Source: Paracoccaceae bacterium (GTDB lineage Bacteria; Pseudomonadota; Alphaproteobacteria; Rhodobacterales; Rhodobacteraceae). Taken from it: a stretch of DNA of 64,000 nt. The translations under genes were made by a program, and so were the position numbers. The stretch is taken from positions 92,733 to 156,732 of the forward strand of contig JAHYIZ010000002.1 in NCBI GenBank assembly GCA_019429405.1, in the 5' to 3' direction. How positions within the stretch are numbered: the stretch's first letter is position 1; every line of letters starts with the position of its first letter. Of the stretch, positions 55,053 through 59,952 are shown in pieces. A model generated the notes under the pieces. The model had not been told where the DNA came from, ran no database searches, and worked only from the letters and a program-made list of their open reading frames with translations.

Positions 55053-55364
55053 TCAGAACATCGGTGACAGGCTGAGCTCGGGCAACGGCGTGCCATCGGG
55101 GGCAAGAAAGACGCGAAAGCTCGTGCCGTCGGACCGCGCAATCTCGGCGCGCCAGAAGAGGCCATGCACCTGCTGCAGGTCAGCGACCCGGTAGCTGCCG
55201 CGCGTCAGCCGCGCGGTCAGCGCCTCGGCGCTGATCCAGCCGCTTGCGCGGGCGACGGCATGAACGCTGGCGGCGGTAATCGGCGGCGCGGCCTCGGCCG
55301 CGCCCAAGGCAAACAGACCGACCGCAGCGGCAAGGGCGGTGCAAAACAGGATGGTGCGTCTCAT
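55053..55364 (-). CDS. Small exported PepSY-like protein, divergent from regulator operon
   Basis: 103 residues. The signal peptide (ILFCTALAAAVGLFALGAAEA) is followed by a small domain ending in FWRAEIARSDGTSFRVFLAP and DGTPLPEL, which has the strand pattern of PepSY domains. GGAGGAA precedes the ATG at 55364. It is divergent from the PepSY/two-component genes and shares the operator region at 55429. Confidence 0.7.
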   Translation of the reverse strand: MRRTILFCTALAAAVGLFALGAAEAAPPITAASVHAVARASGWISAEALTARLTRGSYRVADLQQVHGLFWRAEIARSDGTSFRVFLAPDGTPLPELSLSPMF

Positions 55365-55428
55365 CGGCAATTCCTCCGCTTGGGGGCGCCAGAATCGGCG
55401 CCTGATGCGCCATAGTGCCACAGCATCG

Positions 55429-55467
55429 CTGACGCCGCCCTGACCGCGCCTGTCAGCGCCCTGTCAG
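55429..55467. promoter_or_regulatory. Four-half-site operator of the PepSY-RR-HK operon
   Basis: CTGAC at 55429 and 55440, then GTCAG at 55452 and 55463, giving CTGAC-N6-CTGAC-N7-GTCAG-N6-GTCAG. The whole is an inverted repeat of two direct repeats with 11-bp period, as expected for tandem OmpR-type dimers. It lies between two divergent genes. An identical arrangement stands before the cytochrome operon at 57836. Confidence 0.7.
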
Positions 55468-55490
55468 CGGCGCCCTGCTAGGGCTGGCCC

Positions 55491-55847
55491 ATGTTCCGCC
55501 CCCTCGCCCTTGCTCTTGCCCTCGGCCTTGCCCAGCCCGCGCTGGCCGATGCCAAGCGCCCGCATGATCACGACGCCGCGCACGAGGCGCTGCGGCGCGC
55601 CGAGGTGCTGCCGCTGGCCGAGGTGCTGCGCGCGATTGAGGCGCAGTTCAACGCCCGCCTGATCGAGGTGGAGTTTGAGCGCAAGTCGGGGCAATATATT
55701 TATGATTTCGAACTGATCACTGCTGACGGCAGGATTATCGAGGTTGAGGTGGATGCGGCAACCGGGCGCGTGCTGAAGGTCGAGGGCGACCCCGGCCCTG
55801 CGCCCGATGAGGGGGCAGGCGATGCGGGCACTGGCGGTCGAGGATGA
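55491..55847 (+). CDS. Exported PepSY-domain protein
   Basis: 118 residues. The signal peptide (FRPLALALALGLAQPALA) leads to one PepSY domain (VLPLAEVLRAIEAQFNARLI, EVEFERKSGQYIYDFELITADGR, VEVDAATGRVLKVEGD). PepSY proteins often sit next to two-component systems and may tune sensor or peptidase activity. It overlaps the response-regulator gene. AGGG at 55480-55483 is the likely ribosome site. Confidence 0.85.
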   Translation: MFRPLALALALGLAQPALADAKRPHDHDAAHEALRRAEVLPLAEVLRAIEAQFNARLIEVEFERKSGQYIYDFELITADGRIIEVEVDAATGRVLKVEGDPGPAPDEGAGDAGTGGRG

Positions 55848-56493
55848 CGCGCGCATCGCGGCCGATCTGACCACGGCCTTGCAGGCAGCGGGCTTTGTGG
55901 TGCAGACCTGCGCCGATGGCGAGACCGCGTGGTTTTTGGGGGATACCGAGGATTTCGACCTGATCGTGCTCGATCTGGGCCTGCCCAAGCTTGACGGGCT
56001 GAGCGTGCTCAAGCGCTGGCGCGCGGCGGGGCGCGACATGCCGGTGCTGGTGCTGACCGCGCGCGGCACCTGGAGCGAGCGGGTTGAAGGGATCGACGCG
56101 GGCGCCGATGACTACCTGCCCAAACCCTTCCGCATGGAGGAACTTGTGGCCCGCGCCCGCGCGCTGGTGCGCCGCGCGGCGGGGCGCGGCGGCGCCGTGC
56201 AGGCGGCGGGTGAGCTGACGCTCGATGCCAACCGCATGACCGTGGCGCGGCGCGGGGTGCCGATGGCGGTGACCGCGCTCGAATATCGCCTGCTCGCCTA
56301 TCTGATGCTGCACCGCGACCGCGTGGTGGCGCCGGGCGAATTGCTCGAACACCTTTACGGCGATGATTTCTCGCGCGAGGCGAACGCGCTTGAGGCGCTG
56401 GTGGCGCGGCTGCGGCGCAAGCTTGGCCCCGGCATCATCGGCACAAGGCGCGGCTTTGGCTATTTTCTCGAAGGCGGCGGGGTGGCGGCATGA
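55822..56493 (+). CDS. OmpR/PhoP-type response regulator
   Basis: 223 residues. The receiver domain has Asp51 (LIVLDLGLPKLDG) and Lys101 (DDYLPKPF). A C-terminal winged helix follows (LTALEYRLLAYLMLHRDRVV; ALVARLRRKLG; RGFGYFLEGG). The ATG at 55822 is taken; an ATG 15 bp earlier is in frame. It is coupled to the kinase gene by ATGA. It is the likely binder of the operators at 55429 and 57836. Confidence 0.94.
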   Translation: MRALAVEDDARIAADLTTALQAAGFVVQTCADGETAWFLGDTEDFDLIVLDLGLPKLDGLSVLKRWRAAGRDMPVLVLTARGTWSERVEGIDAGADDYLPKPFRMEELVARARALVRRAAGRGGAVQAAGELTLDANRMTVARRGVPMAVTALEYRLLAYLMLHRDRVVAPGELLEHLYGDDFSREANALEALVARLRRKLGPGIIGTRRGFGYFLEGGGVAA

Positions 56494-57839
56494 GCCGCCT
56501 TTCGCTGCGGCTGCGGCTGCTTCTGGCAGGCGCCGCGGCGATTGTGGTGTCGCTCGTGGTGGCGGCGCTGGCGCTGTCGGAACTGTTCGCGGCGCATGTG
56601 GAACGGCGGGCCGTGGCCGAACTGTCGGTGCATCTCGACCAGTTGCTTGCGGGCGTCGAGCGCGGCGCCGATGGCGCGCTTGAGGTGGCGTCGGCGCCCG
56701 CCGACCCGCGGTTTGCGCGCCCGCTCGGCGGGCTTTACTGGCAGATCGAGGCCGAGGGCGCGGTGCTGCGCTCGCGCTCGCTGTGGGATTATACGCTGGT
56801 GCTGCCTGCTGACGTTCTGGCCGATGGCGCCGCCCACGCGCACCATCTGGCGGGCGCCGGGGGCGAGCCGCTGCTGGTCTATGAACGCTCGGTGCGCTTG
56901 CCCGCGCGCCTCGGGGGGGCGGGCGCCCGCGCGGCGGTGGCGATGGCGGCGGGCGATCTGGCGCAGGCCAAACGCGCCTTCATCGCCGATCTTGCGCCCT
57001 ATGTCGCGCTTCTGGCGGCGGTGCTGATTGCGGCGGGCTGGGTGCAGGTGGGGGTGGGCCTTAGCCCGCTGGCTGCGGTCGAGGCGCGGGTGGCCAATGT
57101 GCGATCGGGCGCACGCGCCCGGCTAGGCGCCGATTTTCCACGCGAATTGAAACCATTGGTCGGTGAGGTTGATGCACTTCTGGCAGAGCGCGAGGCCGAA
57201 CTTGCGCGGGCGCGGGCGCGCGCGGGCGATCTGGCGCATGGGTTGAAAACGCCGCTTCAGGCGCTGATGGGCGAGGCCGGGCGGCTGCGCGGGGCGGGCC
57301 AGCCCGAAGCGGCGCGCGCGATCGAAGACATCACCTCGGCCATGCACCGCCACGTTGACCGCGAGTTGTCGCGCACCCGCGTTGCCACCCGCGCCGCGGC
57401 CGCGCGGGCCGATGCCGCCGAGGCGGTGGGGCGCATCGTGCGGGTGATCCGGCGCAGTGGCCGTGGTGCTGCGCTGAACTGGCACACCGACCTGCCGCCG
57501 GGCCTGATTGCCCTGATCGACATTGATGATCTGACCGAGGCGCTGGGGGCGCTGACCGAGAATGCCGCGCGCCATGCTGGCAGCACCGTCCGCCTTGCCG
57601 CGCGGCGACAGGGCGCGCGGGTGCAGATCGTGGTGGCCGATGACGGGCCGGGCATCGCGCCCGAGCGGATCGAGGCGTTGATGCAGCGCGGCGCGCGGGC
57701 CGATGAAAGCGGCGCCGGCAGCGGGCTTGGCCTTGCCATCGCGCGCGAGATCATCGAGGCGGCGGGCGGCACTTTGACGCTTGCCGACGCCGCACCCGGC
57801 CTGCGCGCCGAGGTCGCGCTGCCCGCCGCGCCAATCTGA
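56490..57839 (+). CDS. PhoQ-like sensor histidine kinase
   Basis: 449-residue inner-membrane kinase. Helices at about 8-34 and 168-190 flank a periplasmic sensor domain of about 135 residues. His250 in DLAHGLKTPL, the N-box TENAARHAG, G1 DDGPGIAPE and G2 GSGLGLAIA make the catalytic core complete. The sensed signal is unknown. Its stop codon lies inside the first half-site of the second operator. Confidence 0.93.
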   Translation: MSRLSLRLRLLLAGAAAIVVSLVVAALALSELFAAHVERRAVAELSVHLDQLLAGVERGADGALEVASAPADPRFARPLGGLYWQIEAEGAVLRSRSLWDYTLVLPADVLADGAAHAHHLAGAGGEPLLVYERSVRLPARLGGAGARAAVAMAAGDLAQAKRAFIADLAPYVALLAAVLIAAGWVQVGVGLSPLAAVEARVANVRSGARARLGADFPRELKPLVGEVDALLAEREAELARARARAGDLAHGLKTPLQALMGEAGRLRGAGQPEAARAIEDITSAMHRHVDRELSRTRVATRAAAARADAAEAVGRIVRVIRRSGRGAALNWHTDLPPGLIALIDIDDLTEALGALTENAARHAGSTVRLAARRQGARVQIVVADDGPGIAPERIEALMQRGARADESGAGSGLGLAIAREIIEAAGGTLTLADAAPGLRAEVALPAAPI

Positions 57840-57874
57840 CATTTCACTGACAGCCGGGGTCAGGGCCGCGTCAG
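57836..57874. promoter_or_regulatory. Four-half-site operator of the b561-SHP-DHC operon
   Basis: CTGAC at 57836 and 57847, GTCAG at 57859 and 57870: the same CTGAC-N6-CTGAC-N7-GTCAG-N6-GTCAG with exactly the spacing of 55429-55467. It overlaps the kinase stop codon and ends 62 bp before the cytochrome gene start. It implies control of the cytochromes by the adjacent two-component system. Confidence 0.7.
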
Positions 57875-57936
57875 GTGGCTCATGCGAAACAGCGGCAAGC
57901 TTGGCCAGTTCTGGCCCCGTTGGAAAGGCCTGCCCG

Positions 57937-59052
57937 ATGACTACCGCCACCCCCACCGCCTCGCAAACCCGTGTCTGGGACCTGTTCGTGCGGGTGTTTC
58001 ACTGGTCGCTGGTGCTTTCGGTGGTGCTGGCGGCCGCTTCGGGGTTCCTGCTCGAATCGCGCATCCTGCTGTTGCACATTTCGGCGGGGCTGGCGGCGGC
58101 GGCGCTGATTGTGGCGCGCATCGTCTGGGGGTTTACCGGCACCACCTACGCGCGCTTTGCCGAATTCGTGCCCGCCCCGGCAGACATTCGCGGGCATCTT
58201 GCAGGCGGCAGCCGCCACCTTGGCCACAACCCCTTGGGCGCGCTGATGGTTCTGGCGCTGATCGTGCTGGTGCTGGCGCTGGCGGTCACCGGGCTGGTGG
58301 TGCTGGGCGGGGTCGATAAATCCGGCCCCATGGCGCCTTGGGTCAGCTACGCGCTCGGCTCTGGCGTGCTGGGGCTGCACGAGGCGCTGGCCTTCGGCAT
58401 TCTGGCCCTCGCCGCGCTGCATTTTGCGGGGGTTGTCTTTGAAAGCCGCCGCTCGCAGGAAAACCTCGCCCGCGCCATGGTGACCGGCGTGAAAGAGCGC
58501 CGCCCCGGTGACCACATTGCCCCCGCCCGCCGCGCGCACCCGGCACTGGCGGTGGCGGCGATTGCGGTGCTGGCGGCCGGCGGCTGGGCTGTGACCGCCT
58601 CGCAGGCCGCGCGCCCGGTGCCGGGTCTGCCTGTTGCCACGCTGGATGCGACCTACAAAGCCGCCTGTTCCGAATGCCACATCGCCTATAATCCCAGCCT
58701 GCTGCCCGCCGCTGCCTGGCTGGGCATCATGGCGGGGCTGAAAGATCACTTTGGCGAAAACGCCACCGTCAGCGCCGCCGAGGCCGAAACCATCACCGCC
58801 TGGCTTACCGCCAACGCCGCCGAGACCGCAGATACCAAACTGGCCCACCGCCTCGCCCTGCGCATCACCGAGCCGCCCTTTGCCATCACCGAGCAGCGCT
58901 ACTGGAAGCGCCTGCACACAGAAATTCCCGACGCGGTCTTTGCCAACCGCGCCGTCGGTGCCCAATCGAACTGCGCCGCCTGCCACGCAGACGCCGAACA
59001 GGGCCGCTTCAGCCCCTTTGCCATTGACCTTCCCAAGGAGACCTTGAAATGA
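57937..59052 (+). CDS. Cytochrome b561 fused to a diheme cytochrome c (DHC) domain
   Basis: 371 residues. Residues about 10-185 are a four-helix cytochrome b561 with candidate haem b ligands His22, His47, His148 and His162. A linker with a fifth helix (203-222) leads to a periplasmic DHC domain with haem sites CSECH (244-248) and CAACH (346-350) and the conserved GLKDHFGENATVS. It is expected to pass electrons from the quinol pool to SHP. GGAAAGG precedes the ATG. It overlaps the SHP gene by four bases. Confidence 0.92.
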   Translation: MTTATPTASQTRVWDLFVRVFHWSLVLSVVLAAASGFLLESRILLLHISAGLAAAALIVARIVWGFTGTTYARFAEFVPAPADIRGHLAGGSRHLGHNPLGALMVLALIVLVLALAVTGLVVLGGVDKSGPMAPWVSYALGSGVLGLHEALAFGILALAALHFAGVVFESRRSQENLARAMVTGVKERRPGDHIAPARRAHPALAVAAIAVLAAGGWAVTASQAARPVPGLPVATLDATYKAACSECHIAYNPSLLPAAAWLGIMAGLKDHFGENATVSAAEAETITAWLTANAAETADTKLAHRLALRITEPPFAITEQRYWKRLHTEIPDAVFANRAVGAQSNCAACHADAEQGRFSPFAIDLPKETLK

Positions 59053-59453
59053 ACCGACTTGTCTTTACCCTTGCCGCTCTGCTTGCCGCTGCCCCCGCCA
59101 TGGCGCAGGACGCGAACGACACCAACGCCGCGGCCCTCATCGCCAAATTCGCCGCCGAGGCGGGCATAACCGCCGATGCCGAGGCAGGCAAAGCTTTCTT
59201 TCTTGCCAACCAGGCCGGGGGCGGCGCCGATACGCCTTCTTGCACCTCGTGCCACACCGCCGACCCAAGGGCGATGGGCGAGGCGCGCACCGGCAAACCG
59301 ATTGAGCCGATGGCGCTGTCGGTCAACCCCAAGCGGTTCACCGACACCGCCTTTGTCGACAAATGGTTTGGCCGCAATTGCGATTCGGTGCTGGGGCGCG
59401 AATGCACTTCGGCCGAAAAAGCCAACGTGCTCGCCTATTATTCCAGCCTCTGA
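59049..59453 (+). CDS. Sphaeroides heme protein (SHP), DUF1924 c-type cytochrome
   Basis: 134 residues. The signal peptide (LVFTLAALLAAAPAMA) is followed by a mature periplasmic monohaem cytochrome with CTSCH (65-69). The SHP hallmark RNCDSVLGREC gives the axial Asn110 and the Cys111-Cys119 disulfide. SHP binds oxygen or NO after reduction by DHC; its physiological substrate is unknown. Lies between two DHC-encoding genes. Confidence 0.93.
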   Translation: MNRLVFTLAALLAAAPAMAQDANDTNAAALIAKFAAEAGITADAEAGKAFFLANQAGGGADTPSCTSCHTADPRAMGEARTGKPIEPMALSVNPKRFTDTAFVDKWFGRNCDSVLGRECTSAEKANVLAYYSSL

Positions 59454-59469: not shown

Positions 59470-59940
59470 ATGAAACGCCTGATCGCCCCGCTTGCCCTTG
59501 CGCTTGCAGCACTGCCGCTTGCCGCCTTCGCGCAAGACCGCATGGCCCCGGTGACCGACCCCACCACCCTGACCGATTGCACCGAATGCCACATGGCCTT
59601 TCCGGCGGGCTTCTTGCCCGCGCGCTCGTGGCAGGCGGTGATGGCGGACCTCAAAAACCACTTTGGCGAAAACGCCAGCATCAGCGAAGAAAACCGCCTC
59701 AAGATAACTGCCTATCTTGTTGCCAATGCAACAGATTCCGGCATTCTGAAGGCGCGCACAACGTCGCGCATCCTCAACGGGATCACGGCAGATATGACGC
59801 CGCTGCGGATCTCTGACATGTCGTGGTGGAAGCGCGAACACAACGGCGAGGTGTCGCAAGCCGAATGGGACCGCGCAAAATCGCCCGCCAACTGCGTCGC
59901 CTGCCACCGTGATGCCGAACGCGGCTATTTCGAAGACTGA
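59470..59940 (+). CDS. Diheme cytochrome c (DHC), soluble copy
   Basis: 156 residues. The signal peptide (LIAPLALALAALPLAAFAQ) leads to a periplasmic diheme protein with CTECH (37-41) and CVACH (142-146). The segment DLKNHFGENASIS parallels the fused domain upstream (GLKDHFGENATVS). It is the classical electron donor to SHP. The presence of a second DHC domain in the same operon is notable. Confidence 0.93.
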   Translation: MKRLIAPLALALAALPLAAFAQDRMAPVTDPTTLTDCTECHMAFPAGFLPARSWQAVMADLKNHFGENASISEENRLKITAYLVANATDSGILKARTTSRILNGITADMTPLRISDMSWWKREHNGEVSQAEWDRAKSPANCVACHRDAERGYFED

Positions 59941-59952
59941 TCCCGTGCCGGA

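Follow-up and report, generated by a model that had tools for sequence, protein, structure and literature searches.

Two likely operators in front of the regulator and SHP cytochrome operons

Two sequences with the same four half-sites, one in front of the operon of a two-component system and one in front of the SHP cytochrome operon, are very probably operators of the OmpR-family response regulator encoded between them. Judging from conservation and promoter geometry, this regulator would activate its own operon, the divergent PepSY-like gene and the SHP operon. Both sites are located in the window, i.e., the whole stretch of 64,000 nucleotides that was analyzed (Table 1). As proposed in the preliminary description, all 20 fixed bases are matched at both 39-base sites, and the half-sites start at offsets 0, 11, 23, and 34 in each of them. 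The stop codon of the kinase gene (TGA, 57837-57839) lies inside the first half-site of operator 2. The claim that such a motif is very unlikely to arise by chance was also borne out: no match at ≤ 3 mismatches was obtained in dinucleotide-preserving shuffles of the window, and a scan of the source genome (2,860,745 bases in 69 contigs, 98% complete) at the same threshold returned operators 1 and 2 as the only matches, with no unrelated occurrence and no match for the backwards control motif. The half-motif CTGAC-N6-CTGAC occurred 12 times in exact form in the source genome, four times within the operators, compared to two matches for its backwards control. The other eight matches are by estimate about as many as expected from base composition, and the idea of a larger regulon in the source genome, with targets besides these two operons, was set aside.

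Table 1. Positions in the window of the operators, their repeats, predicted promoter elements and neighboring genes.
Feature	Position	Strand	Description
pepN	55053..55364	-	small exported-looking protein; divergent from operator 1
Predicted -10 region of pepN	55412..55417	-	CACTAT; mirror position; prediction
Operator 1	55429..55467		CTGAC-N6-CTGAC-N7-GTCAG-N6-GTCAG; exact motif match between divergent pepN and pepP
Direct repeat of operator 1	55429..55444	-	GTCAG-N6-GTCAG; faces divergent pepN
Facing direct repeat of operator 1	55452..55467	+	GTCAG-N6-GTCAG; faces PepSY-RR-HK operon
Predicted -10 region of pepP	55479..55484	+	TAGGGC; extended -10 by G at 55477; prediction
pepP ('Orf1')	55491..55847	+	PepSY protein; PF03413, E 4e-12
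Response regulator gene	55807..56493	+	OmpR/PhoB family; PF00072 (Response_reg) and PF00486 (Trans_reg_C)
Histidine kinase gene	56490..57839	+	'SK1' type; Pfam and motifs GLYWQ ... RSRSLWD
Operator 2	57836..57874		four half-sites of operator 1; exact motif match upstream of cytochrome operon
Reverse pair of operator 2	57836..57851	-	no reverse -10 position (G where A expected)
Facing direct repeat of operator 2	57859..57874	+	GTCAG-N6-GTCAG; faces b561-SHP-DHC operon
Predicted -10 region of SHP operon	57886..57891	+	GAAACA; G at 57884; prediction
CytB/mDHC gene	57937..59052	+	cytochrome b561-diheme cytochrome c fusion; PF01292 and PF09626
SHP gene	59049..59453	+	SHP (DUF1924) cytochrome; PF09086, E 6e-35
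sDHC gene	59470..59942	+	second diheme cytochrome c; PF09626

The regulator has a receiver domain with the phosphoacceptor aspartate and a Trans_reg_C winged helix, as is characteristic of the OmpR/PhoB family. Its residues D56 and K106 are invariant in 80 aligned sequences, and its relatives of solved structure include BasR (PmrA; entries 4s04 and 8jo2). The kinase contains the motifs LGGLYWQ and RSRSLWD and is adjoined by the PepSY protein Orf1, which assigns the two to the SK1/Orf1 type, and the cytochrome operon combines b561 (PF01292), DHC (PF09626), and SHP (PF09086), the composition of an SHP operon. No Pfam match was obtained for PepN of the window; two proteins of relatives that were scanned from the place of pepN are PepSY_2 proteins (PF13670). 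In the relative L045, the PepSY_2 gene is followed by a b561 gene. The idea that a histidine-rich Orf1 forms a general metal site was abandoned, as just 18 of 77 proteins have at least three histidines in residues 16-60.

Conservation of the motif in the family

The conservation of the motif was analyzed in a near-relative set of 61 genomes (the source genome and 60 relatives) and in a family draw of 394 genomes, in which the motif was scored at ≤ 1 mismatch and the kinase with a cut-off of E ≤ 1e-60. In the near-relative set, all three congeners keep both operators at the orthologous loci, with one mismatch at one site and with variable spacers; the backwards control matched in three of the 61 genomes. 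Matches with two or three mismatches in G027, G005, and G010 were put down to chance, as no regulator or SHP genes were found within about 1.2–1.5 kb of them (12 kb in G027).

In the family draw, the motif was present in 18 of 394 genomes and the kinase in 30, and the latter included all 18 motif-bearing genomes (Fisher p 1.6e-23); the backwards control matched in none of the 394. Thus, within this draw, the motif is confined to genomes with an SK1-type kinase. Almost all sites (21 of 23) front one of the two operons, that of the regulator or that of SHP. Of the two others, the site in G156 follows directly after the kinase gene and faces an ORF with RTX repeats, and the site in G389 (contig C3, one mismatch) faces a nifB-like ORF, which counts against the proposed mechanism.

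A direct repeat as the unit of the operator

The regulator loci of named genomes were represented by the best 80 of 444 confirmed relatives, a selection biased to close relatives; at least seven of the 80 loci also belong to the family draw, so the two samples overlap. An exact GTCAG-N6-GTCAG repeat facing the operon was found within 400 nt upstream of its first detected gene in 68 of these best 80 loci, whereas half-site spacings of 2–5 and 7–12 did not occur in the same region of any of the 80. The repeat thus has an 11-bp period only, about one helical turn, as is typical of OmpR/PhoB-type operators. The exact four-half-site form was present in 14 of the 80. Altogether, the 1.16 Mb of these loci contained 128 exact repeats compared to 2.47 expected, a full operator being counted twice; 119 of them lie close to a regulator or cytochrome gene or directly behind the kinase gene and nine elsewhere. 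The 68 loci with a facing repeat include members of Bradyrhizobium, Hyphomicrobium, Thiocystis, Thiocapsa, and Gallionella.

An even draw across the phylum comprised 398 genomes, 24 of them with the kinase, among these the source genome and G072. A facing site near the operon was found in 11 of the 24 in exact form and in 13 at ≤ 1 mismatch. In a further genome, L207, the distance between an exact site and the regulator gene downstream of it is 517 nt and thus exceeds the limit, and in five of six genomes of one genus (L193-L197) no facing site was present near the operon. The motif fades with phylogenetic distance.

Predicted promoter layout at the regulator loci

When the 68 sites from the best 80 of 444 loci were aligned on the facing repeat, an A at position 28 (A28) was found in 85% and a G at position 25 in 62% of the sites, which we read together as an extended -10 region. 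The repeat occupies the expected place of the -35 region at a fixed distance from this predicted -10 region, corresponding to a class II layout. At the mirror positions, a T at -36 (87%) and a C at -33 (69%) are conserved, in addition to CTGAC at -23 and CTGA at -12. In the window, the predicted start of pepP transcription coincides with, or lies close to, the first base of the ATG start codon (A, 55491), and the predicted message would therefore be leaderless. The GAAACA of the SHP operon is a weak match to a -10 region and is conserved in position only.

PhoB and PmrA recruit RNA polymerase as a dimer bound in place of the -35 region, and their class II operators are direct repeats 11 bp apart that replace the -35 box. 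The sites described here resemble these operators in having an 11-bp direct repeat that ends about 11 nt before the -10 region and an OmpR-family regulator, but differ in the half-site GTCAG and in the mirrored arrangement of the repeats, in which the inner half-sites start 12 bp apart and both directions are served at the regulator loci. By analogy, a phosphorylated regulator dimer would sit head-to-tail on each direct repeat, occupy the -35 place (about -39 to -24), and recruit RNA polymerase in the manner of PhoB and PmrA; a pair of such dimers, arranged back to back, would make the promoter at the regulator locus bidirectional.

The same geometry bears on the direction of control, which is unreadable from conservation alone. 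In a rival reading, the regulator binds the sites as a repressor, its bound form switching both operons off. We consider this very unlikely because the repeat ends 11–12 nt upstream of the conserved -10 region, at the -35 place, as in promoters that PhoB-like regulators activate by the class II mode. To the proposal that the sites are bound by another regulator, such as PhoB itself, we give hardly any credit. The PHO box is CTGTCAT-N4-CTGTCAT, and the source genome contains 11 sequences that deviate from it by no more than two mismatches, among them the facing repeat of operator 1, CTGTCAGCGCCCTGTCAG. However, only this one of the four repeats of the two operators lies within two mismatches of a PHO box, the other three being absent from the 11, and in the family draw the motif is restricted to kinase-bearing genomes, whereas PhoB is widespread. 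Autoregulation and control of the cytochromes by the OmpR-family regulator encoded next to the sites, as originally suggested, are well supported by conservation and geometry.

The overall inverted symmetry had been singled out as unusual for this regulator family. At the regulator site, it fits the divergent gene and the mirrored -10 region. Among the 74 regulator sites found at ≤ 1 mismatch in the best 80 of 444 loci, the reverse -10 A is present in 65. The reverse pair retains at least 8 of 10 bases in 55 of the 74, all of which have the reverse A, compared to 10 of the remaining 19. At sites with a detected cytochrome or PepSY gene in divergent orientation, the reverse A was present in 38 of 38 cases and the reverse pair in 35 of 38; at sites with no such detection, the numbers were 27 of 36 and 20 of 36, respectively. 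We infer that most regulator sites would be two back-to-back activator sites for divergent promoters. The explanation that the reverse pair exists only because of a divergent gene was rejected: the difference between 35 of 38 and 20 of 36 (p 4e-4) contrasts with a p of 0.055 in a rank test on the same scores, and the tandem SHP loci and distant loci described below contradict it.

Palindromic operators of OmpR-family regulators are also known from CusR/PcoR-type systems, in which each half consists of one half-site. The present operator shares the inverted repeat and the regulator family with these sites; its halves, in contrast, are direct repeats. In Caulobacter, UzcRS is homologous to cusRS, and the passages on this system in two papers give no letters of a binding motif (PMC12864828, PMC11870441).

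Operator variants in kinase-bearing genomes

Twelve of the 30 kinase-bearing genomes of the family draw have no full motif at ≤ 1 mismatch, three of them with close and nine with distant kinases (35–38% identity). Among the three with close kinases, G251 has a single facing repeat at the regulator operon and another at the SHP operon; G208 has three tandem facing half-sites and, in addition, a facing repeat after the kinase gene; and in G072 the two opposed repeats are separated by 61 bp. Both halves of the palindrome are direct-repeat units, and this unit is also found alone or tripled in relatives.

At eight of the nine distant-kinase loci we found a lopsided four-half-site operator, which precedes the regulator gene by about 2.3–2.4 kb in seven cases and by 0.4 kb in G196; the ninth locus, in G011, ends near a contig edge. 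In these eight operators the pair reading away from the operon matches 9–10 of 10 bases and the facing pair 6–8, where the scan kept sites by their total or away-pair score and its selection favors the away pair. A28 towards the operon is present in all eight and the reverse A in two. In G388, G219, G378, and G090, an ORF in the direction of the operon starts 66–131 nt beyond the lopsided operator. The orientation of the better-kept pair away from the operon at eight of nine distant loci, with only 6–8 of 10 bases left in the facing pair, is an observation that runs against the proposed mechanism. The single, tripled, mirrored, pulled-apart, and lopsided forms constitute a natural operator series in which the cooperation of OmpR-family dimers can be studied.

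The reverse pair at tandem SHP operons

A divergent promoter, as predicted at the regulator site, does not explain the reverse pair in front of the SHP operon. After the kinase gene, 18 of the best 80 of 444 loci have a facing repeat at ≤ 1 mismatch. A28 towards the gene is present at 17 of these 18 sites and the reverse A at two, a frequency of the latter well below that at the regulator sites (2 of 18 versus 65 of 74, p 8e-10). Nevertheless, the reverse pair retains at least 8 of 10 bases at 11 of 12 loci with a tandem SHP operon, an arrangement that gives no reason to expect a divergent gene; L105 retains three. At three of the 12 the reverse pair is exact and the facing pair is ATCAG-N6-ATCAG (8 of 10). 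With their better-kept pair directed away from the operon, these three loci also run against the proposed mechanism.

The symmetry in front of the SHP operon might be a mere duplicated copy of the bidirectional regulator operator, with a passive reverse pair. Seven of nine four-half-site loci after the kinase gene lack the reverse -10 A, and eight of these nine operators have their first base 1 nt ahead of the stop codon of the kinase gene and may share descent or a coding constraint; both are in line with a passive copy. A passive copy, however, should decay first, yet the reverse pair is the better kept one, which counts against this reading. This applies to the three tandem SHP loci with an exact reverse pair and also to the eight distant regulator loci, six of which have no reverse -10 A. 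We therefore regard a passive copy as rather unlikely. Since the reverse pair is mostly kept without a promoter at both tandem SHP and distant regulator loci, we infer that it helps the promoter-side dimer. At tandem SHP operons, the mostly promoterless reverse pair would thus assist binding of the dimer next to the promoter. With about as much doubt as confidence, we propose that the palindrome is a self-contained two-way cassette of one two-component family, with two regulator dimers in back-to-back arrangement that each precede an extended -10 region of their own; that in a copy placed before the SHP operon the reverse dimer would have lost its promoter and remained as an upstream helper loading a weaker promoter-side dimer; and that the cassette would allow control of SHP across replicons, as in the R. 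sphaeroides-like genome described below.

Linked and unlinked SHP operons

An association of SHP with these regulatory genes is already known. In the abstract, Gene Organization section, and Discussion of Meyer, Kyndt and Cusanovich (2010; PMC2909971), SHP operons with Orf1, a response regulator, and the SK1 kinase (YWQ, RSRSLWD) are described, SK1 is suggested as a possible controller of SHP, and a possible divergent promoter is inferred between two Orf1 homologues in Rhodospirillaceae; these parts of the paper contain no operator sequence. The window has the identical Orf1/RR/SK1 gene set next to b561/DHC/SHP. The Rhodobacteraceae SHP operons covered there had no adjacent regulatory genes (PMC2909971), whereas such genes are present in the Rhodobacterales genus studied here, and the operator is common to both members of an unlinked pair. 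The operator motif strings, like other work on the operator, were absent from the literature searched, which covered a minority of the subscription journals. New are the operator, its unit, the mirror-image promoter layout and the occurrence of the operator in front of SHP operons both linked and unlinked to the regulator, as well as regulatory genes adjoining the SHP operon in a Rhodobacterales genus. With an operator defined by sequence, the suspected link between SK1 and SHP becomes directly testable in laboratory strains, and the operator can serve as a regulon tag for further targets and, through them, for the stimulus.

Twelve members of the family draw (394 genomes) contain SHP, five with and seven without the kinase (cut-off 1e-60); in none of the seven was the regulator detected at 1e-55. 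A facing repeat at ≤ 1 mismatch was present upstream of the b561 gene in five of five genomes with the kinase compared to one of seven without it (p 0.015). Five of the seven kinase-less genomes had no facing repeat at ≤ 2 mismatches; in G137 it was found with two mismatches and in G412, which has SHP but no close regulator, with one. Both of these cases run against the proposed mechanism.

In G077, an R. sphaeroides-like genome and one of the five with the kinase, the SHP operon is located on a 3.19-Mb contig and the regulator on a 0.94-Mb contig. These sizes match the two chromosomes of R. sphaeroides. The regulator has an operator with one mismatch and the SHP operon has two imperfect operators (one and two mismatches) whose starts are 68 bp apart; neither of the latter has A28, the -10 position of the class II layout, which counts against control of SHP by the regulator in this genome. 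In R. sphaeroides, SHP has been assigned to chromosome I and SK1/Orf1 to chromosome II, and a functional relationship between them was not known (PMC2909971, in the parts named above). The shared operator extends the SK1-SHP link to a genome with the genes on separate contigs.

Operators beyond linked regulator operons

In the R. sphaeroides-like genome, two four-half-site operators, whose starts lie 68 bp apart, both precede the unlinked SHP operon. The SHP operon of G412, a genome without a close regulator, keeps a facing repeat with one mismatch; a reverse repeat, also with one mismatch, lies at an abnormal distance. This arrangement is possibly a relic.

Candidate further targets

We inspected nine loci with an operator immediately 3′ of the kinase gene and no cytochrome match. 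The operator faced an ORF with RTX calcium-binding repeats in two of them and an EF-hand protein in one, which hints at a calcium or divalent-metal theme; no gene was recognised in the remaining six. The additional site before the nifB-like ORF of G389 might be either a chance occurrence or an additional target.

In both tabulated operons from loci with the distant kinase, PepSY-RR-HK is preceded by two other ORFs: one is small, rich in Ser and Pro and looks exported, and the other has about 420 residues and is of unknown type.

Exact repeats were also seen elsewhere. In two Aliiruegeria loci the repeat is located past the SHP operon, with GCTA at the -10 position and, downstream, an ORF judged by eye to be NAD-dependent epimerase-like. 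In three Bradyrhizobium loci, two of them from one genome, the repeat lies about 6 kb past the kinase gene and upstream of an exported ORF, TPR-like by eye.

Coordinates of operators, repeats and associated ORFs
Feature	Position	Strand	Remark
Four-half-site operators, R. sphaeroides-like genome	L041:5137-5175; L041:5205-5243		1 and 2 mismatches
Repeats, G412	L171, ~110-165 nt upstream of CytB match
Added ORFs, distant kinase type	L064:7226-9580; L067:7673-9924		Preceding PepSY-RR-HK
ORFs faced by post-kinase operators	L044:5125-5787; L120:6126-6848; L096:9405-9968	-; +; +	RTX or EF-hand
Four-half-site operator, G389	L042:5195-5233		1 mismatch; just upstream of nifB-like ORF
nifB-like ORF, G389	L042:5239-6849	+	Radical_SAM + Nitro_FeMo-Co
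Exact repeats, Aliiruegeria	L082:11445; L083:11444
Exact repeats, Bradyrhizobium	L122:15754; L130:15762; L136:15144	-
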